Shown here: piece by piece, positions 15,597-22,191 of the stretch
How positions within the stretch are numbered: position 1 is the stretch's first letter
How the letters are laid out: each line of letters begins with the position of its first letter
Origin: a virus
Virus record (IMG/VR): IMGVR_UViG_3300015360_000028
Coordinates: 64,001 to 91,610 of that record
DNA: 27,610 bases
Strand: one strand, 5' to 3'
Made by a program: the position numbers and the translations under genes
Notes under the pieces: generated by a model
Seen by the model: only the letters and a program-made list of their open reading frames with translations
Told to the model about the DNA's origin: nothing
Database searches by the model: none

Positions 15597-18500
15597 ATGG
15601 CCAATAACACCATCGATGCCAATAACTTCACGTTATCGACAGACTTAAACGTCGGTCCTTATTATGATGATTTCAATGCCTACAAAGATTTCTACAGAAT
15701 TCTTTATAAACCAGGTATGGCCGTTCAAGCACGTGAACTTACACAGATGCAAACGATGTTCCAGAAACAGATTGATCGTTTCGGTGAACACATTTTTAAA
15801 GAAGGCTCCATCGTAACTGGCTGCGCCTTCAACATCGATCTTAAAAGACCATTCGTTAAACTAAGAGATGCAAACTACGCGGCAGCAGCGGTGACAGTTG
15901 GCAACTTCGATGGCACTCTTGTTACAGGCGCGACGTCAGGTGTAAAGGCATATGTCTTAACCTCAAACACAGGTTCAGAAGCCGGGGCACCTGATTACAA
16001 AACTATTCATGTCAATTATACCGCATCAGGAACTAACACTCTAGCCTCTACCTTCATTGTAGGCGAAAGACTAAACGCTAACACAGGCTTCTCAGCTAAC
16101 GTTATTTCGTCAAACACAGGATTGGGGTATGGTTCATCCTTCACAGTTGGCGACGGCGTTATTTTCGCAAAAGAACATTTTATTAGAATTGCCGAGCAGA
16201 CAATTGTCCTCGAAAAATATTCAGTGACACCTTCATATAGAGTCGGTTTCAATGTTGTTGAAAGCATCGTAACCTATAACGAAGACACCTCATTAAACGA
16301 CCCTGCTCAAGGTTCTTATAACTACGCAGCACCAGGCGCCGATCGTTTGAAATTAAATGCAGTTCTTGAAAAAAGAGCTCTAACAGCGAACACAGCAAAC
16401 TTCGCTGAATTGTTCTTAATCGAAAACGGCGTTATCAAATCAAAAGCCCAAACGCCACAATACTCAGTTATTCGTGATGAACTCGCCAGAAGAACAGAAG
16501 ATGAATCAGGAAATTACACTGTTCGTGGCCTCGACGTTATCGTTCGTGAACACTTAAATTCTAACACAAACAACGGCGTCTACTATTCAGACGCTGGTGG
16601 TAATCCTTTGAAACTTGCTGCAGGTGTTGAACCCGGTAAGGCTTATGTCAAAGGTTATGATTACGAAAACCTCTACACAAGATATCTTGATATTGATAAG
16701 GGTATCGATTTCATTGATATCGAGCAGCAGACCATTTCAGCAAATTATGGCTCTTATGTATATGTCAACGACGTTTGTGGTTTCTGGGATGTGAACACCC
16801 AACCACTCGTTAAACTCTACAGCACAGCACAAAACAAAGTTTCAGGCAGCTCATATTCAACAGGTTCTGCCTCAGGAGCGATGATCGGTACTGCCAGAGC
16901 TAGAGCAATCGTTTATAATTCTGGAACTGTAAATAATCCAAACGCTGTCTACAAACTATATCTTCATGATATTAAAATGTCTAACGGCGCCTTCTCAGCG
17001 ACCCGCGCAGTCCTCCTAGATGGTGTGACAACAAAGGGCTTTGCTGACACAGTGTTGGTTTCAAACAACACAGTTCTTCAGGAAACTTCTTTTGACACCT
17101 CTGTGTTTATACTTCCTGCAAAAGCAGTGAAGAGAATTAGAGACTCCGCCGGCAACATTGACAACTCATTTCAGTTCTACAAATATTTCGACGTTACAAT
17201 CGCTTCGGGCGGAACATTCTCGATCGCTACCGGTGCAGTTGATGAAACGTTCCCGTATTCAGCAGGTTTATTGAACAACACTCAGATGCTAGCAGACATG
17301 TATGTAGTGACCAATGCTACTCAGCATACGGCTTCTTTGACAGGCACGATCAGCGTAAATTCTGGCTCCAATACATTCAACGGATTGGGCACAGCGTTCA
17401 CAACTCAGCTCGCAGTCGACGATCATATTAGAATCGGTGGCGGCACTATCTACAGAATTCATTCAATTACAAGCGCAAACACCTTAATCGTTACAACTCA
17501 GCCAGGCGGTAACCTGGCATCACAGGTTTATGTAAGAACTTATTATCAGGGCAAGATTATTGACTTCACAAGAACAGGAGCAACCGGTACATCTAGATCG
17601 GTAAACATCACCTCTGCAACCGGTGCAACATTCGACATGAAAGAAACCTTAGCAAGTACAGTATCTGCTACAGCAATCGTGAAGCTAAACAAAGTCGATG
17701 GCCAAGAAAAGAGAAAGGTTCTAAACGCTGACAAATATGTGAAGATCAGAATTTCAACACATCCTTTGACAACCACAGGACCTTGGACACTAGGTATTCC
17801 AGACGTATTCAATATCGTTTCAGTAAGAAGACATACAGCCAACTTCACAACCGTGAGTGATGGTACAGATGTGACTTCATATTTCACCTTGAACACAGGG
17901 CAAACAGATACTCTCTACAACCACTCATCTATTGTAAACTCAGGTGGATTGACTATTGCTTCCGGCGATTACTTACTGGTGAAACTTGATTACTTTGCAC
18001 ATGATACCTCTCAGGGGGTGGGTTACTTCTCAGTTGATTCTTATCCAGTTGATGATATCTCAGTAGCAAATACATCAGCAATAACCACCAAGGAAATTCC
18101 GAGATATACTTCGCCGACATCAGGCATTCTTTATGATCTAAGAGATTCAATTGATATTCGTCCGTCTGTTACGCTCACAGCAAACAGCGTTTCAACATTG
18201 ACCAACATCTCGCAGAATCCAGCAGAATCTACAACACTCGCAACGGTTACTGGTGGCCTCCACTATATGCCACCGAATTCGTATATGCTAGCTGATTTGT
18301 CTTATTATCTTTCGAGAAAAGATTTGGTTACTCTAAACAGCCGTGGTGATTATAAGGTAATTCGTGGCGTTCCTTCGAAATTCCCAATCACACCGACCGC
18401 GCCAGACGACTCGATGACTCTTTCAAAAATTGAAGTAAGTCCATTCCCATCCTTAACAACTTCCATTGCACAGGCATATGGTCGTCAGGACTTGTCAATT

Positions 18501-19346
18501 ACTTTGAAAAAGATTGAGAACAAGCGTTACACAATGAGAGATATCGGCGTCCTAGAAAATCGTATAAATAACTTAGAATATTATGTGACATTGTCATTGC
18601 TAGAAAAAGATACCAAAGATCTAGTTGTTCTAGATGGTAACGGTTTAGATAGATTTAAGAATGGTATCTTAGTTGATTCGTTCACTGGCCACAATATCGG
18701 CAACGTTTATGATGTGGATTACAAGATTGCAATTGACCCATCGTTAGGTGAAGCAAGACCTCAGTTCTTCTTGAACAACGTGGAATTGTTCTTCAATGCC
18801 GCCGTCTCGTCAAATTACGCACGTAGCGCGGCAGACGCAACAATAACAGTGGCCAGTACGACAGCATTCGTAATTGGTGAATCAATTTATCAAGGTGCTA
18901 ACTTCGGTGCAGCTACAGCAGTTGGCGTATTGAGAAGAAAGTCTTCGACAAATCTATATCTTGAACAGGTAACAGGAACATTCGCTGGTGCCACTGCTAC
19001 AAAAGGAAACACTTCTGGTGGATCATCAGTATCCTCAGCAGTAGCACTTCCAACACTTAGTAAGCTGGTGACGCTTCCATATACTCATGAAACACTAATT
19101 GATCAGCCATATTCTACAACCGCAAGAAATCCAGCGGGACTTTTTTACAGATGGAAAGGCGTATTGACGCTGAACCCAGATGCAGATTATTGGGTAGACA
19201 CGACACAGGTTCCAGACGTCCAGGTGAACTTCGACAATAACAAAGATAACTGGGTGCAGAATGTCGGCGTTTGGAGAACTGAATGGAACAACTGGCAGAC
19301 AAACGTTACAGGAACGGCGGGAGACAGAATAAATGAAAAGAGATAG
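15597..19346 (+). CDS. Large DUF4815-type baseplate/tail fibre attachment protein
   Basis: A 1249-residue protein. The N-terminus has GPYYDDFNAYKDFYRILYKP followed by GMAVQARELTQMQTMFQKQI and FGEHIFKEGSIVTGC, the pattern of DUF4815 (PF16075) proteins found after gp8 in T4-type marine and environmental phages. Later segments include VREHLNSNTNNGVYYSD, GKAYVKGYDYENLYTRYLDI and MRDIGVLENRINNLEYYVTL, a short coiled coil. The C-terminus carries LPYTHETLIDQPYSTTARNP and a tryptophan-rich end (WRTEWNNWQTNVTG). Several beta modules with SGA-type loops lie between these. The role is probably a peripheral wedge component that carries fibres, at the place of T4 gp9-gp10. The start has an AAGGA site. An internal TATAAATA at 18563-18570 is probably chance. 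Confidence 0.7.
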   Translation: MANNTIDANNFTLSTDLNVGPYYDDFNAYKDFYRILYKPGMAVQARELTQMQTMFQKQIDRFGEHIFKEGSIVTGCAFNIDLKRPFVKLRDANYAAAAVTVGNFDGTLVTGATSGVKAYVLTSNTGSEAGAPDYKTIHVNYTASGTNTLASTFIVGERLNANTGFSANVISSNTGLGYGSSFTVGDGVIFAKEHFIRIAEQTIVLEKYSVTPSYRVGFNVVESIVTYNEDTSLNDPAQGSYNYAAPGADRLKLNAVLEKRALTANTANFAELFLIENGVIKSKAQTPQYSVIRDELARRTEDESGNYTVRGLDVIVREHLNSNTNNGVYYSDAGGNPLKLAAGVEPGKAYVKGYDYENLYTRYLDIDKGIDFIDIEQQTISANYGSYVYVNDVCGFWDVNTQPLVKLYSTAQNKVSGSSYSTGSASGAMIGTARARAIVYNSGTVNNPNAVYKLYLHDIKMSNGAFSATRAVLLDGVTTKGFADTVLVSNNTVLQETSFDTSVFILPAKAVKRIRDSAGNIDNSFQFYKYFDVTIASGGTFSIATGAVDETFPYSAGLLNNTQMLADMYVVTNATQHTASLTGTISVNSGSNTFNGLGTAFTTQLAVDDHIRIGGGTIYRIHSITSANTLIVTTQPGGNLASQVYVRTYYQGKIIDFTRTGATGTSRSVNITSATGATFDMKETLASTVSATAIVKLNKVDGQEKRKVLNADKYVKIRISTHPLTTTGPWTLGIPDVFNIVSVRRHTANFTTVSDGTDVTSYFTLNTGQTDTLYNHSSIVNSGGLTIASGDYLLVKLDYFAHDTSQGVGYFSVDSYPVDDISVANTSAITTKEIPRYTSPTSGILYDLRDSIDIRPSVTLTANSVSTLTNISQNPAESTTLATVTGGLHYMPPNSYMLADLSYYLSRKDLVTLNSRGDYKVIRGVPSKFPITPTAPDDSMTLSKIEVSPFPSLTTSIAQAYGRQDLSITLKKIENKRYTMRDIGVLENRINNLEYYVTLSLLEKDTKDLVVLDGNGLDRFKNGILVDSFTGHNIGNVYDVDYKIAIDPSLGEARPQFFLNNVELFFNAAVSSNYARSAADATITVASTTAFVIGESIYQGANFGAATAVGVLRRKSSTNLYLEQVTGTFAGATATKGNTSGGSSVSSAVALPTLSKLVTLPYTHETLIDQPYSTTARNPAGLFYRWKGVLTLNPDADYWVDTTQVPDVQVNFDNNKDNWVQNVGVWRTEWNNWQTNVTGTAGDRINEKR

Positions 19347-19395
19347 AAACGGCAATCAAGTTGATTCTAACAGACCGTCTTCGTAAGGGCAAATA

Positions 19396-22191
19396 ATGGC
19401 AACGACACCTAAACAATTTAGAAGTTCAACAACGGCTGCGGCGGCGGCGGCGCCGGCGGCGGCAGACACAACGTCTAGAAGAATTACTGATATTAGAACT
19501 GGAACAAGAACTACCGTTGTTCCTGAAACTGTAAATCAGAGTCTTGGGGCAAAGGTAATAGACGTTTCAATTAGACCGTGGATTAGACCTAGAGAAGTTC
19601 AGTTCACCGCACATGGCATGAAACCCTCAACAAGATTGTGGGCATTTTTTGATGGCGAACCAGTAAAAGATTATATCATTCCAACGAACTCATCTTTCGC
19701 TAACACAGGAAGCCAAGGCTCGTTTCTAACCTCAAACTCTTTAGGAAGTGTCTATGGCATTTTCAAGATCCCAAACTCAGAAGCACTTCGTTTCAGAACA
19801 GGGCAGAGAATCTTTAGAATTTGTGATAGCATTGACAACTCACAAGAGTTGGGGCTTGTAAATACCTCAGCAGAATCAGAATACAACGCAGATGGTCTTC
19901 ATCAAACCGTACAAGACACAGTCATATCGACTAAAGTGCCAAGAATCGTAACAGAAACAGTTACTGAAACAAGAACAAGAGAGCCCCCCTCTGTAAATCG
20001 GCCGGGGCTCAATGATCGGGGGGGGTGTTGCTTCGATCCAAAATCATTGGTTACGATGGCAGATGGTTCCACAAAGCAAATTAAAGATGTAGTCATTGGT
20101 GATAGAGTGCAAGGTTCTACAATGATCAACACAGTTCTTGGAATTGATATTCCAAAACTCTTTTCTAGATATATGTGTTCTTTCAATAACAATTGGGAAT
20201 TCATTTCTGAAGAACACCCTATTATGACAGACAAAGGATGGTCGGCATTTGAACCAGAAAGTCCATATGTAGATTACATGTTCATCGGCAAACTAGCAAA
20301 ACTAGACATCGGTTCTAAAGTTCTAAAGTTAGATGGATCTTGGGAAGAGGTCGTGACGATAAATTACATCGAACAGCCAGAAGATATGGATATTTATAAT
20401 CTTCTATTAGACGGTGATCACACCTATTATGTCGAAGGGTATTCAGTTCACAACAAAGGCTCTGATCCTATAGCACAATCATTCACAATACCGGATGAAA
20501 TTGACAATAACCCAGTTCAGATTGGTGTGTTCGTTACGAAGATCGATTTGTTCTTCCAACAGAAAGACGCAACTCTTCCGGTCATTGTTGAACTCCGTGA
20601 AATGTCTGGTGGTATTATTCTTTCGTCTAGAATGTTGCCTTACTCGCAAGTCATATTATTCCCAGCAGACGTGAACGTTAGTGAAGATGGTTCTGTGGCT
20701 ACACAGTTCGTATTTACAGCACCAGTGTTTCTATACTCGAGGACTGAATACGCATTCGTCGTAAAGCCAGGTGGAACAAATCCGAACTATAAAGTTTGGA
20801 CCTCTAAATTAGGAGAAGAAGATCTTCTAACTGGTTTCAGAATTAATCAGCAGCCAGCAACAGGTGTTCTACTTGCTTCTTCTAACGATTCGACTTGGTC
20901 GGCCGTACAAGATGAAGATATCAAGTTCACACTTTATAGAGCTGAATTCAACAACACTGTGACAGGAAATATTTATCTTGTTAATGAGGGCAAAGACTTC
21001 CTTACTGCCAACAACTCAACTGGATTGTTTGATCTAGAAGCAGTAAGAGGCGAAACAAGATTGACAGTAGGTGCATTAGCAAATGGTACACCAATAGTCG
21101 GGCAAAAGATTTATGGTCTAACTTCTACAACATATGGAACAATCACTAATATTGCCGGCGGTGTTTATAGATTAAAGGACGTCTCGTTTGGAAAAAACTT
21201 CACAGCAGCTGAAGTCCTTCGTTTCAGATACTCAAACAATTTCAACACAGGTGCAACTGGTACTGCAACATCTTATACCCAGCCAACTGGCAAGATCAAT
21301 TTTTATGATATCTATTCCTCAGCAAACACTCTGATTCATATCGCCAACACAGCAGGTGGTTACATTGCAGGCGAATGGATTCAAGGGATGAGCTCAAATA
21401 CTCAGGCCCTAATCCACTCTATCGATGATCTCCAGGTAAACGTATTCCAACCAGATGTGAACTACATCGAGTTTGCTAACACAAACGTTGATTGGTATGC
21501 GAAGACAACTTCAACTGGTCATGCACTTGGATCGACATTCGATCTAATCAATATGGCCGATAACAATGAAACAGCCACAGAAAAAAGAGTTGTTTCTAAA
21601 TCTAAAGAAATCTCAGATATGACCTCGAACAAATCTTTCCAAATCAAGGGAATGATGACGTCAGAATCAAGCCTCTTGTCTCCAGCAATTGATTTGTCGC
21701 TTGCAGGTGTAACCTTAGTCGGTAATATCATAAACAATGTTTCAACAAACGAAACAGGTAAGACAGGTGGAGATGCTAAGGCCAGATATATCACAAGAAT
21801 CGTGACACTCGATGAAGGTCAAGATGCAGAAGATTTGAAGGTCTATGCAACTGTTTACAAACCAGCCGGAACTGATATAAAAGTCTACTATAAGATTCTA
21901 CATGCTGAAGACTCAGATGATTTCTCAGACTTCTCATGGGTCGAAATGGGACAAGACAACACTTCAACATTGGTTTCAGATAATGTCGATAAGTTCGACT
22001 ATAAAGAATTCTCATGGTCGGTTCCAACAGCTAAATTGACAGGGCCGCTTGGTCAGGTTCGTTACACAAACTCAGCCTCGGTTGTCTTTACTGGGTTCAA
22101 AAGATTTATGATTAAAGCAATTCTTCTGGGTTCTGATACATCAGTCATTCCTAGAATGGCCGATATTCGTGTCCTAGCAATGCAGAAATAA
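19396..22191 (+). CDS. Virion structural protein interrupted by a Hint (intein-like) domain
   Basis: A 931-residue protein. Residues 10-25 are an alanine-rich tract (AAAAAAPAAA) from GCG repeats. Residues about 50-200 are a beta-rich domain including RPWIRPREVQFTAHGMKPST. Residues 212-353 are a complete Hint domain. From residue 354 the protein continues with KGSDPIAQSFTIPDE, then VFVTKIDLFFQQKDATLPVI, SGGIILSSRMLPYSQVILF and YSRTEYAFVVKPGG, a conserved structural domain of T4-type phages in which a DP[IL]AQ[ST]F motif is typical. The C-terminal part has further beta modules and ends MADIRVLAMQK. It follows the DUF4815 gene, with an AAGGG site before the ATG, and probably forms part of the fibre attachment apparatus. 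The Hint domain probably processes the protein. Which cleavage or splicing occurs cannot be seen. Confidence 0.75.
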   Translation: MATTPKQFRSSTTAAAAAAPAAADTTSRRITDIRTGTRTTVVPETVNQSLGAKVIDVSIRPWIRPREVQFTAHGMKPSTRLWAFFDGEPVKDYIIPTNSSFANTGSQGSFLTSNSLGSVYGIFKIPNSEALRFRTGQRIFRICDSIDNSQELGLVNTSAESEYNADGLHQTVQDTVISTKVPRIVTETVTETRTREPPSVNRPGLNDRGGCCFDPKSLVTMADGSTKQIKDVVIGDRVQGSTMINTVLGIDIPKLFSRYMCSFNNNWEFISEEHPIMTDKGWSAFEPESPYVDYMFIGKLAKLDIGSKVLKLDGSWEEVVTINYIEQPEDMDIYNLLLDGDHTYYVEGYSVHNKGSDPIAQSFTIPDEIDNNPVQIGVFVTKIDLFFQQKDATLPVIVELREMSGGIILSSRMLPYSQVILFPADVNVSEDGSVATQFVFTAPVFLYSRTEYAFVVKPGGTNPNYKVWTSKLGEEDLLTGFRINQQPATGVLLASSNDSTWSAVQDEDIKFTLYRAEFNNTVTGNIYLVNEGKDFLTANNSTGLFDLEAVRGETRLTVGALANGTPIVGQKIYGLTSTTYGTITNIAGGVYRLKDVSFGKNFTAAEVLRFRYSNNFNTGATGTATSYTQPTGKINFYDIYSSANTLIHIANTAGGYIAGEWIQGMSSNTQALIHSIDDLQVNVFQPDVNYIEFANTNVDWYAKTTSTGHALGSTFDLINMADNNETATEKRVVSKSKEISDMTSNKSFQIKGMMTSESSLLSPAIDLSLAGVTLVGNIINNVSTNETGKTGGDAKARYITRIVTLDEGQDAEDLKVYATVYKPAGTDIKVYYKILHAEDSDDFSDFSWVEMGQDNTSTLVSDNVDKFDYKEFSWSVPTAKLTGPLGQVRYTNSASVVFTGFKRFMIKAILLGSDTSVIPRMADIRVLAMQK
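19981..20025 (+). repeat. Inverted repeat and G8 run at the Hint domain junction
   Basis: GAGCCCC (19981-19987, part of a six-C run) is the exact reverse complement of GGGGCTC (20004-20010), with 16 bases between. Eight consecutive Gs follow at 20018-20025, directly before the two cysteine codons that open the Hint domain. Such runs are otherwise rare in this gene. They encode the Gly/Arg-rich linker NRPGLNDRGG. Confidence 0.8.
20029..20454 (+). other. Hint / mini-intein-like autoprocessing domain (residues 212-353)
   Basis: The 142-residue insert has the intein block order. Block A is CFDPKSLVTMADGSTKQIKD with C212 as the likely nucleophile (C211 directly precedes it), then VVIGDRV. Block B is represented by ISEEHPIMTDKGW, with S in place of the usual T. 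A strand DGSWEEVVTINYI follows. The C-terminal blocks are DMDIYNLLLDGDHTYYV and VEGYSVHN, ending H352-N353. No homing endonuclease is present and the size is that of a mini-intein. The residue after Asn is Lys, not Cys, Ser or Thr, so canonical splicing is not expected. That fits bacterial intein-like (BIL) domains, which tend to cleave. The insert lies directly before the conserved KGSDPIAQSF of the host protein. Confidence 0.85.

Follow-up and report, generated by a model that had tools for sequence, protein, structure and literature searches.

What does a complete Hint domain do in the middle of a phage baseplate protein? This question is raised by a stretch of viral DNA of 27,610 nucleotides (hereafter the window; positions 64,001 to 91,610 of IMG/VR record IMGVR_UViG_3300015360_000028), in which a reading frame open across 931 codons carries such a domain between a β-domain and a DPIAQSF motif (Table 1).

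The Hint domain lies in the C-terminal half of a VrlC-type baseplate protein

A preliminary description of this DNA had taken the 931-residue product for a virion protein, with the Hint domain placed directly between a β-domain and a conserved motif. Both points hold. The phrog_358 (VrlC/DUF4815) profile matched the protein over both flanks of the insert, and the protein is homologous to ORF65 of a staphylococcal phage, a baseplate chain of solved structure (9euf; E 2e-14), whose residues 671-788 match the part before the insert and 786-951 the part after it. The reading frame encodes the C-terminal half of a double-layer baseplate protein of the VrlC/DUF4815 type, kin of A511 Gp106 and phage 812 ORF65. 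In Ochrobactrum phage OC (locus L003), both halves found in the window are fused in a single reading frame of 1942 residues that lacks the Hint domain. The window splits VrlC at 19347-19395, between the DUF4815 half and the β-domain, as do Xanthomonas phage X1 and Caulobacter phage Cr30; in other relatives the split instead follows TF[QKST]EA[EQ].

VrlC has been described as a component of two-layered baseplates (PMC7029224), and its homologue Gp106 of A511 builds pyramids at the tail fibres that turn towards the cell at adsorption (PMC11406892). Lectin- or CBM-like folds have been placed at about residues 811-959 and 1060-1164 of homologues, and the C-terminal part studied here corresponds by position to the region of this kind in Deep-Blue Gp176 (PMC11406892). 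From homology, we infer that the domain opening at DPIAQSF is the first of these lectin/CBM-like folds, which would put the Hint domain between the stem and the surface-binding part. The characterised VrlC, A511 Gp106 and phage 812 ORF65 proteins form the host family and share this domain order but lack the Hint domain; in the data examined, none of the named characterised members (A511 Gp106, phage 812 ORF65) carries one at the junction of stem and C-terminal part.

Table 1 Features of the baseplate locus in the window (aa, amino acids; AF2, AlphaFold).
Feature	Position	Strand	Basis
N-terminal half of VrlC/DUF4815 baseplate protein, 1249 aa, own gene	15597..19346	+	DUF4815 E 1.7e-58; phrog_358 E 8.5e-258
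931-aa ORF: stem β-domain, linker, Hint, C-terminal part	19396..22191	+	phrog_358 E 7e-135
Stem β-domain, residues 45-180	19528..19935	+	matches 9euf 671-788; AF2 pLDDT about 90 over most
Flexible linker, residues 182-211, ending RGG-C211	19939..20028	+	AF2 pLDDT 32-50
Cys211, position -1 of the doubled cysteine	20026..20028	+	Cys at -1 in 10/11 close Hints
Hint (type-A BIL-like) domain, residues 212-353, 142 aa	20029..20454	+	profiles, AF2 model, fold search
Cys212 (Cys1), predicted nucleophile of the N-S acyl shift	20029..20031	+	18/18 fused relatives
His274, block-B histidine (SEEH)	20215..20217	+	18/18 fused relatives
His352-Asn353 (Asn353 at 20452-20454), block-G pair for predicted Asn cyclisation	20449..20454	+	18/18 fused relatives
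Lys354, +1 residue, family signature	20455..20457	+	15 Lys and 3 Arg of 18; Lys in 24/29 His-Asn clusters
C-terminal part, residues 354-931, opening with a DPIAQSF carbohydrate-binding-module-like domain	20455..22188	+	9euf 786-951, profile E 2.1e-45
DPIAQSF motif, start of the C-terminal part	20464..20484	+	

The insert is an intact domain resembling type-A BILs

Residues 212-353 matched the Pfam profiles Vint, Hint and PT-HINT in a scan of the whole protein (E 1.8e-5 to 8e-4), and the isolated domain scored 31.8 bits against Vint, for which the Pfam cut-off is 27. An AlphaFold model built from 32 relatives reached a pLDDT of 92.8 and a pTM of 0.87. It shows the horseshoe fold of the HINT superfamily, with C212 as N-terminal nucleophile and H274 in the block-B motif SEEH. 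The top PDB matches of this model in a Foldseek search were BUBL BIL2 (E 1.4e-9), the gp41-1 intein and the BIL domain of C. thermocellum; fold comparison gave Z scores of 19.6, 16.8 and 16.7 for these three and of 14.4 for Hog, and dozens of inteins and BILs matched at Z 12-20. BIL2 also ranked first in a profile search with the domain (E 1.4e-13). Since the Pfam profiles, the HINT fold model and the Foldseek matches agree, the assignment is not a chance one, and the complete, mini-intein-sized Hint domain from C212 to N353 that had been proposed is confirmed with all its catalytic residues. A larger model of 501 residues shows a folded β-domain, a disordered linker (about 182-209) and a Hint domain that continues straight into the C-terminal part; with a pTM of 0.45 its domain orientation is uncertain and was left uninterpreted. 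The GC content of the Hint region is 36.9% compared with 45.0% and 40.6% in its flanks, at similar GC3.

All residues for an N-S acyl shift and for Asn cyclisation are present, and the nucleophile for transesterification is absent. The domain ends in H352-N353 and has no nucleophile at +1 (Lys here, Lys or Arg in relatives), as expected of type-A BILs. It shares with the type-A BIL of C. thermocellum (2lwy) the HINT fold, Cys1, the block-B His, the C-terminal His-Asn, the missing +1 nucleophile and a position between independent domains. It differs from type-A BILs by a conserved basic +1 residue (Lys/Arg), its place in a tailed-phage virion protein, recurrent insertion at one junction and tandem arrays, and its processing is predicted. 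With BIL2 of Tetrahymena thermophila (6y75, 6tmm) it has in common a Gly-Gly before the Hint domain and a similar length (C1-N143, here 142 residues); BIL2 is set apart by ubiquitin-like flanking domains, a Lys of the neighbouring domain as acyl acceptor and activation by Zn. As to whether the domain lies nearer to type-A BILs than to inteins, BIL2 ranks first, but the intein gp41-1 and the BIL 2lwy are tied by Z; this order reflects fold scores and not a tree.

Three other assignments were rejected. The class 1 mini-intein gp41-1 (6qaz) resembles the domain in its fold, its SxxH block B, its His-Asn end, its location in a phage gene and the lack of an endonuclease, but inteins of this type need Cys, Ser or Thr at +1, where the window has Lys; a canonical class 1 intein was therefore discarded. 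The Hedgehog Hog domain (1at0) and Vint (8r2c) are alike in HINT fold, Cys1 and N-side thioester chemistry, whereas the window domain has His-Asn and a C-terminal flank and no sterol-recognition region; a Hog domain was dismissed as His-Asn is present and 578 residues of baseplate protein follow. A type-B BIL was excluded by the presence of block G (VHN). The domain is intact and probably active; its fold, catalytic residues, conservation, insertion site and turnover are observed, and from these we infer its activity and the outcome.

The doubled cysteine C211-C212 had been called an oddity. It is real, and it is a trait of the nearest Hint subfamily, with Cys at -1 in 10 of 11 close Hints; across the wider family this position is mostly S, C, T or G. 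One idea, by analogy, is that the pair could act as a redox lock. PDB entry 3nzm, termed a 'redox trap', is among the fold matches; this trap is a disulphide between the intein Cys1 and a cysteine of the N-terminal flank.

A basic +1 residue behaves as part of the module

A lysine at +1 had been noted. The residue is there, and it is no oddity of this one protein but a conserved signature of the family. We checked 18 dereplicated fused relatives with a Hint domain at this junction, spanning several Hint subtypes: Cys1, the block-B His and His-Asn are kept in every one, and the +1 residue is always basic (15 Lys, 3 Arg). Among 29 His-Asn clusters at 70% identity, +1 is Lys in 24, Cys in four and Arg in one, a count restricted to loci found with patterns lacking K, which replaced biased counts from a VHNK pattern. 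Lys is also retained as the final residue of proteins ending in VHNK (L030-L034, L070) and between abutting tandem Hints, where VHNK runs directly into CFIAGT (L257, L258, L252, L218). Since Lys is kept both at protein ends and between Hints, it behaves as though it belonged to the module rather than opening the host flank.

VrlC proteins with two to four Hints in tandem occur in L257, L258, L252 and L218, in L024-L027, and in L037-L039 and L044; the last copy in L024 and L037 lacks His-Asn. Outside VrlC, the C-terminal Hint of L030-L034 (e.g. L030 1840-3003) sits in a tail assembly protein (phrog_32) and ends exactly at VHNK and the stop codon; the gene lies between gpK- and gpJ-like genes, a place like that of lambda gpI. 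In Pelagibius marinus and Pelagibius litoralis (L181, L185), two nearby bacterial genes each encode a Hint, then VHNKGG and a tail rich in Gly.

Could the lysine serve as an acceptor? By analogy to BIL2, the Hint domain might activate the end of the stem and hand it to an amine, which could be that of a Lys on a different chain of the baseplate or of the +1 Lys side chain, giving an isopeptide cross-link. BIL2, the nearest solved fold, is reported to link to Lys through an isopeptide bond (PMC8616854). Such a transfer would fit the retention of Lys as last residue and between abutting Hints, and also Hints at protein C-termini, where N-side chemistry alone counts. However, BIL2 and inteins are so close in fold that likeness leaves the chemistry unfixed, and Arg replaces Lys in 3 of the 18 fused relatives and Cys does so elsewhere, so that the module does not require a Lys side chain that reacts. 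We consider acyl transfer improbable; the arginines argue that, in at least some lineages, selection keeps a basic residue rather than a reacting lysine amine. A highly improbable extension of the idea treats phage HN-K Hints as a large mobile autoprocessing class, in which the conserved +1 Lys would be the acyl acceptor: the stem would be joined to the ε-amine of Lys354 and cyclisation of Asn353 would free the Hint, leaving a baseplate protein branched through an isopeptide bond or, in proteins that end with Lys, a stem with an ε-linked Lys tag.

Scar-free insertion and possible splicing

Relatives were collected by scanning viral contigs with the Hint domain and, separately, with the C-terminal part, for which an alignment of 19 sequences proved too diverse as a query. 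The scans gave 117 dereplicated C-part loci, of which 73 are fused without a Hint, 7 split without, 19 fused with and 18 split with one; as the set was partly gathered via Hints, these counts are no measure of prevalence, and the assignments of L248 and L258 are doubtful. A comparison with insert-free relatives had been suggested at the outset: most relatives lack the insert and run directly from the linker to DP[IL]AQ[ST]F, and in 15 of the 18 checked fused relatives the Asn lies 0-3 residues from this motif. The insertions leave no scar: L117 reads SGGG-DPIAQSF, and its near relative L118 reads SGGG, then a Hint of 146 residues between C and HN, then KPIAQSF. Phage OC (ERGGGP-DPVAQTF) and the window offer the same comparison of a junction without and with a Hint, and the tail end of one split gene also shows a clean insertion (L078 compared with L074).

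Such junctions would suit splicing, in which the α-amine of Lys354 would attack the Cys212 thioester after Asn353 cyclisation to give a 789-residue protein reading ...DRGGC-KGSDPIAQSF.... Every splicing motif is kept except the +1 nucleophile. Its absence had been taken to make normal splicing unlikely; the nucleophile is indeed missing, but splicing may still occur, as type-A BILs can join their flanks at low yield with the free α-amine in place of a nucleophilic side chain (PMC4031507). On the other side, there is no +1 Cys, Ser or Thr and cleavage usually dominates in BILs, cis-splicing in the split-gene phages could restore just a short tail, and Lys alone could be joined in L030-L034 and L070, which end at HNK. 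We regard splicing as the main outcome as rather unlikely.

The module is gained, lost and exchanged between phages

On a tree of the C-terminal part (quick tree method, parsimony), Hint presence changed at least about 17 times and the gene split 6 times. For pairs with usable dS, dN/dS was 0.06-0.16 for the Hint, compared with 0.15-0.39 for the β-domain and 0.07-0.28 for the C-terminal part; the module is under purifying selection, generally with a lower ratio than the β-domain of its host. The Hints of L016 and L018 are 93% identical with a dS of 0.56 while their flanks reach 1.54 and 1.62, and the Hint dS of L067 and L072 is 0.29 against 0.75 and 0.63; as the Hint values lie below those of the flanks, such Hints have been exchanged between phages.

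These data also bear on an inert or selfish module that would spread between phage linkers by recombination with no role in the virion. The many gains and losses, the low dS of the L016/L018 Hint and the lack of an endonuclease would agree with this; yet all 18 fused relatives keep the catalytic residues, selection is purifying, and a dead insert would decay. The divergent copy in phage DLP_6 may be an instance of such decay. We hold a module of this sort to be highly improbable.

The C-terminal parts of L070, L016 and L068 are near-identical, and L070 carries at the same site a quite different Hint subtype (CHAPWAKITM..VAHNK, then stop), a module replacement. In L046 (1575-6278), a Hint ending in VHNC lies late in the DUF4815 half; DUF4214 repeats come after it, and the next reading frame holds the β-domain. 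This is a second insertion site within the VrlC/DUF4815 family. A tblastn search of 50,697 phage records with the window Hint returned no clear VrlC-type relative but only helicase and terminase inteins and a T7-like phage protein, and wider Hint queries of phage records likewise gave no cultured VrlC copy. They did give a virion protein of the cultured jumbo phage Erwinia phage pEa_SNUABM_3 (gp111; L268 3026-4468), which has collagen repeats and a C-terminal Hint ending in HN-T and might serve as an experimental model.

Gene splits indicate that a cut is tolerated at the junction

In several phages (L016-L020, L067, L068, L072, L074, L079) the reading frame stops soon after the Hint, and the next one opens just before [DN/H/K]P[IL]AQ[ST]F. 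The triple-Hint phages L024-L027 and L037 show the same split, with the motif at the start of a separate reading frame. In Stenotrophomonas phage DLP_6 (L012, KU682439.2), the first VrlC reading frame ends in a divergent Hint and the C-terminal part is the next one; the unannotated Hint-like end (GGGGGGCVVSD...YSHNA..., about 900-1426 of the locus) was spotted by eye, lies below the profile threshold and may be decaying. Because the C-terminal part is its own reading frame beside a Hint in several phages, a two-chain VrlC is viable.

Splits without a Hint were found at 7 loci, and five lineages of the same freshwater clade are split without one; splits also occur at other VrlC boundaries, e.g. 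between the two reading frames of the window. The association of Hint and split was strong in raw counts and not significant after correction for descent; we therefore dropped it as proof of function. The splits show tolerance of cutting at this place and are no proof that the Hint cuts.

Proposed cleavage at one or both Hint ends

Our best explanation, which we judge to have a slightly better than even chance, is type-A BIL-like autoprocessing by cleavage at one or both ends of the Hint domain. Cys212 would take over the acyl group of Cys211 in an N-S shift aided by His274, and Asn353 would cyclise with the aid of His352 and free Lys354. Because Lys and not Cys, Ser or Thr occupies +1, normal transesterification could not follow and cleavage at one or both ends would be usual. 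Residues 1-211 and 354-931 would then stay together in the baseplate as two chains, with the Hint released and a minor fraction rejoined through the free amine of Lys354. C-terminal cleavage would be marked by a peptide KGSDPIAQSFTIPDE with a free N-terminus. A search by mass spectrometry for an N-terminus at K354, as proposed earlier, is confounded by a trypsin digest, because this enzyme itself cuts behind K354.

Precedent lies with type-A BILs, which have His-Asn and no +1 nucleophile: they mostly cleave (PMC4031507, PMC7664689) and splice weakly through the free α-amine (PMC4031507). Self-cleavage or acyl transfer to another amine, named from the start as the likely chemistry, thus draws support from published work on BIL domains (PMC4031507, PMC8616854). 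In the 15 of 18 fused relatives with Asn next to the motif, a C-terminal cut would mimic the natural starts of separate C-part genes, and on the N-side the linker is disordered in the AlphaFold model. Against cleavage, junctions of the L117/L118 type would be restored equally well by splicing, and 73 of the 117 dereplicated loci encode one uncut chain without a Hint; as most relatives are of this kind, cutting is dispensable in general. The earlier suggestion that autoprocessing matures the phage particle must be narrowed accordingly: cleavage is generally unneeded, and the module is recurrent and laterally moving instead of a one-off.

Implications

Neither the Hint fold nor its chemistry is of a new kind. 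Four features do look new: the module is placed recurrently in a virion protein, its +1 residue is basic and conserved, it forms tandem arrays, and it is exchanged laterally. A limited literature search, which does not exclude that such work exists, found none on Hint domains in phage structural proteins. If active, the domain would build autoprocessing into a phage tail machine, where the stem meets the surface-binding part of the double-layer baseplate, a structure that reorients in A511 on adsorption. It would also place BIL domains, of whose biological roles little is understood, in a defined setting that can be tested. With hundreds of natural variants that carry a basic residue at +1, the Hint family is a resource for work on how acyl groups pass to amines and for tools in protein engineering.
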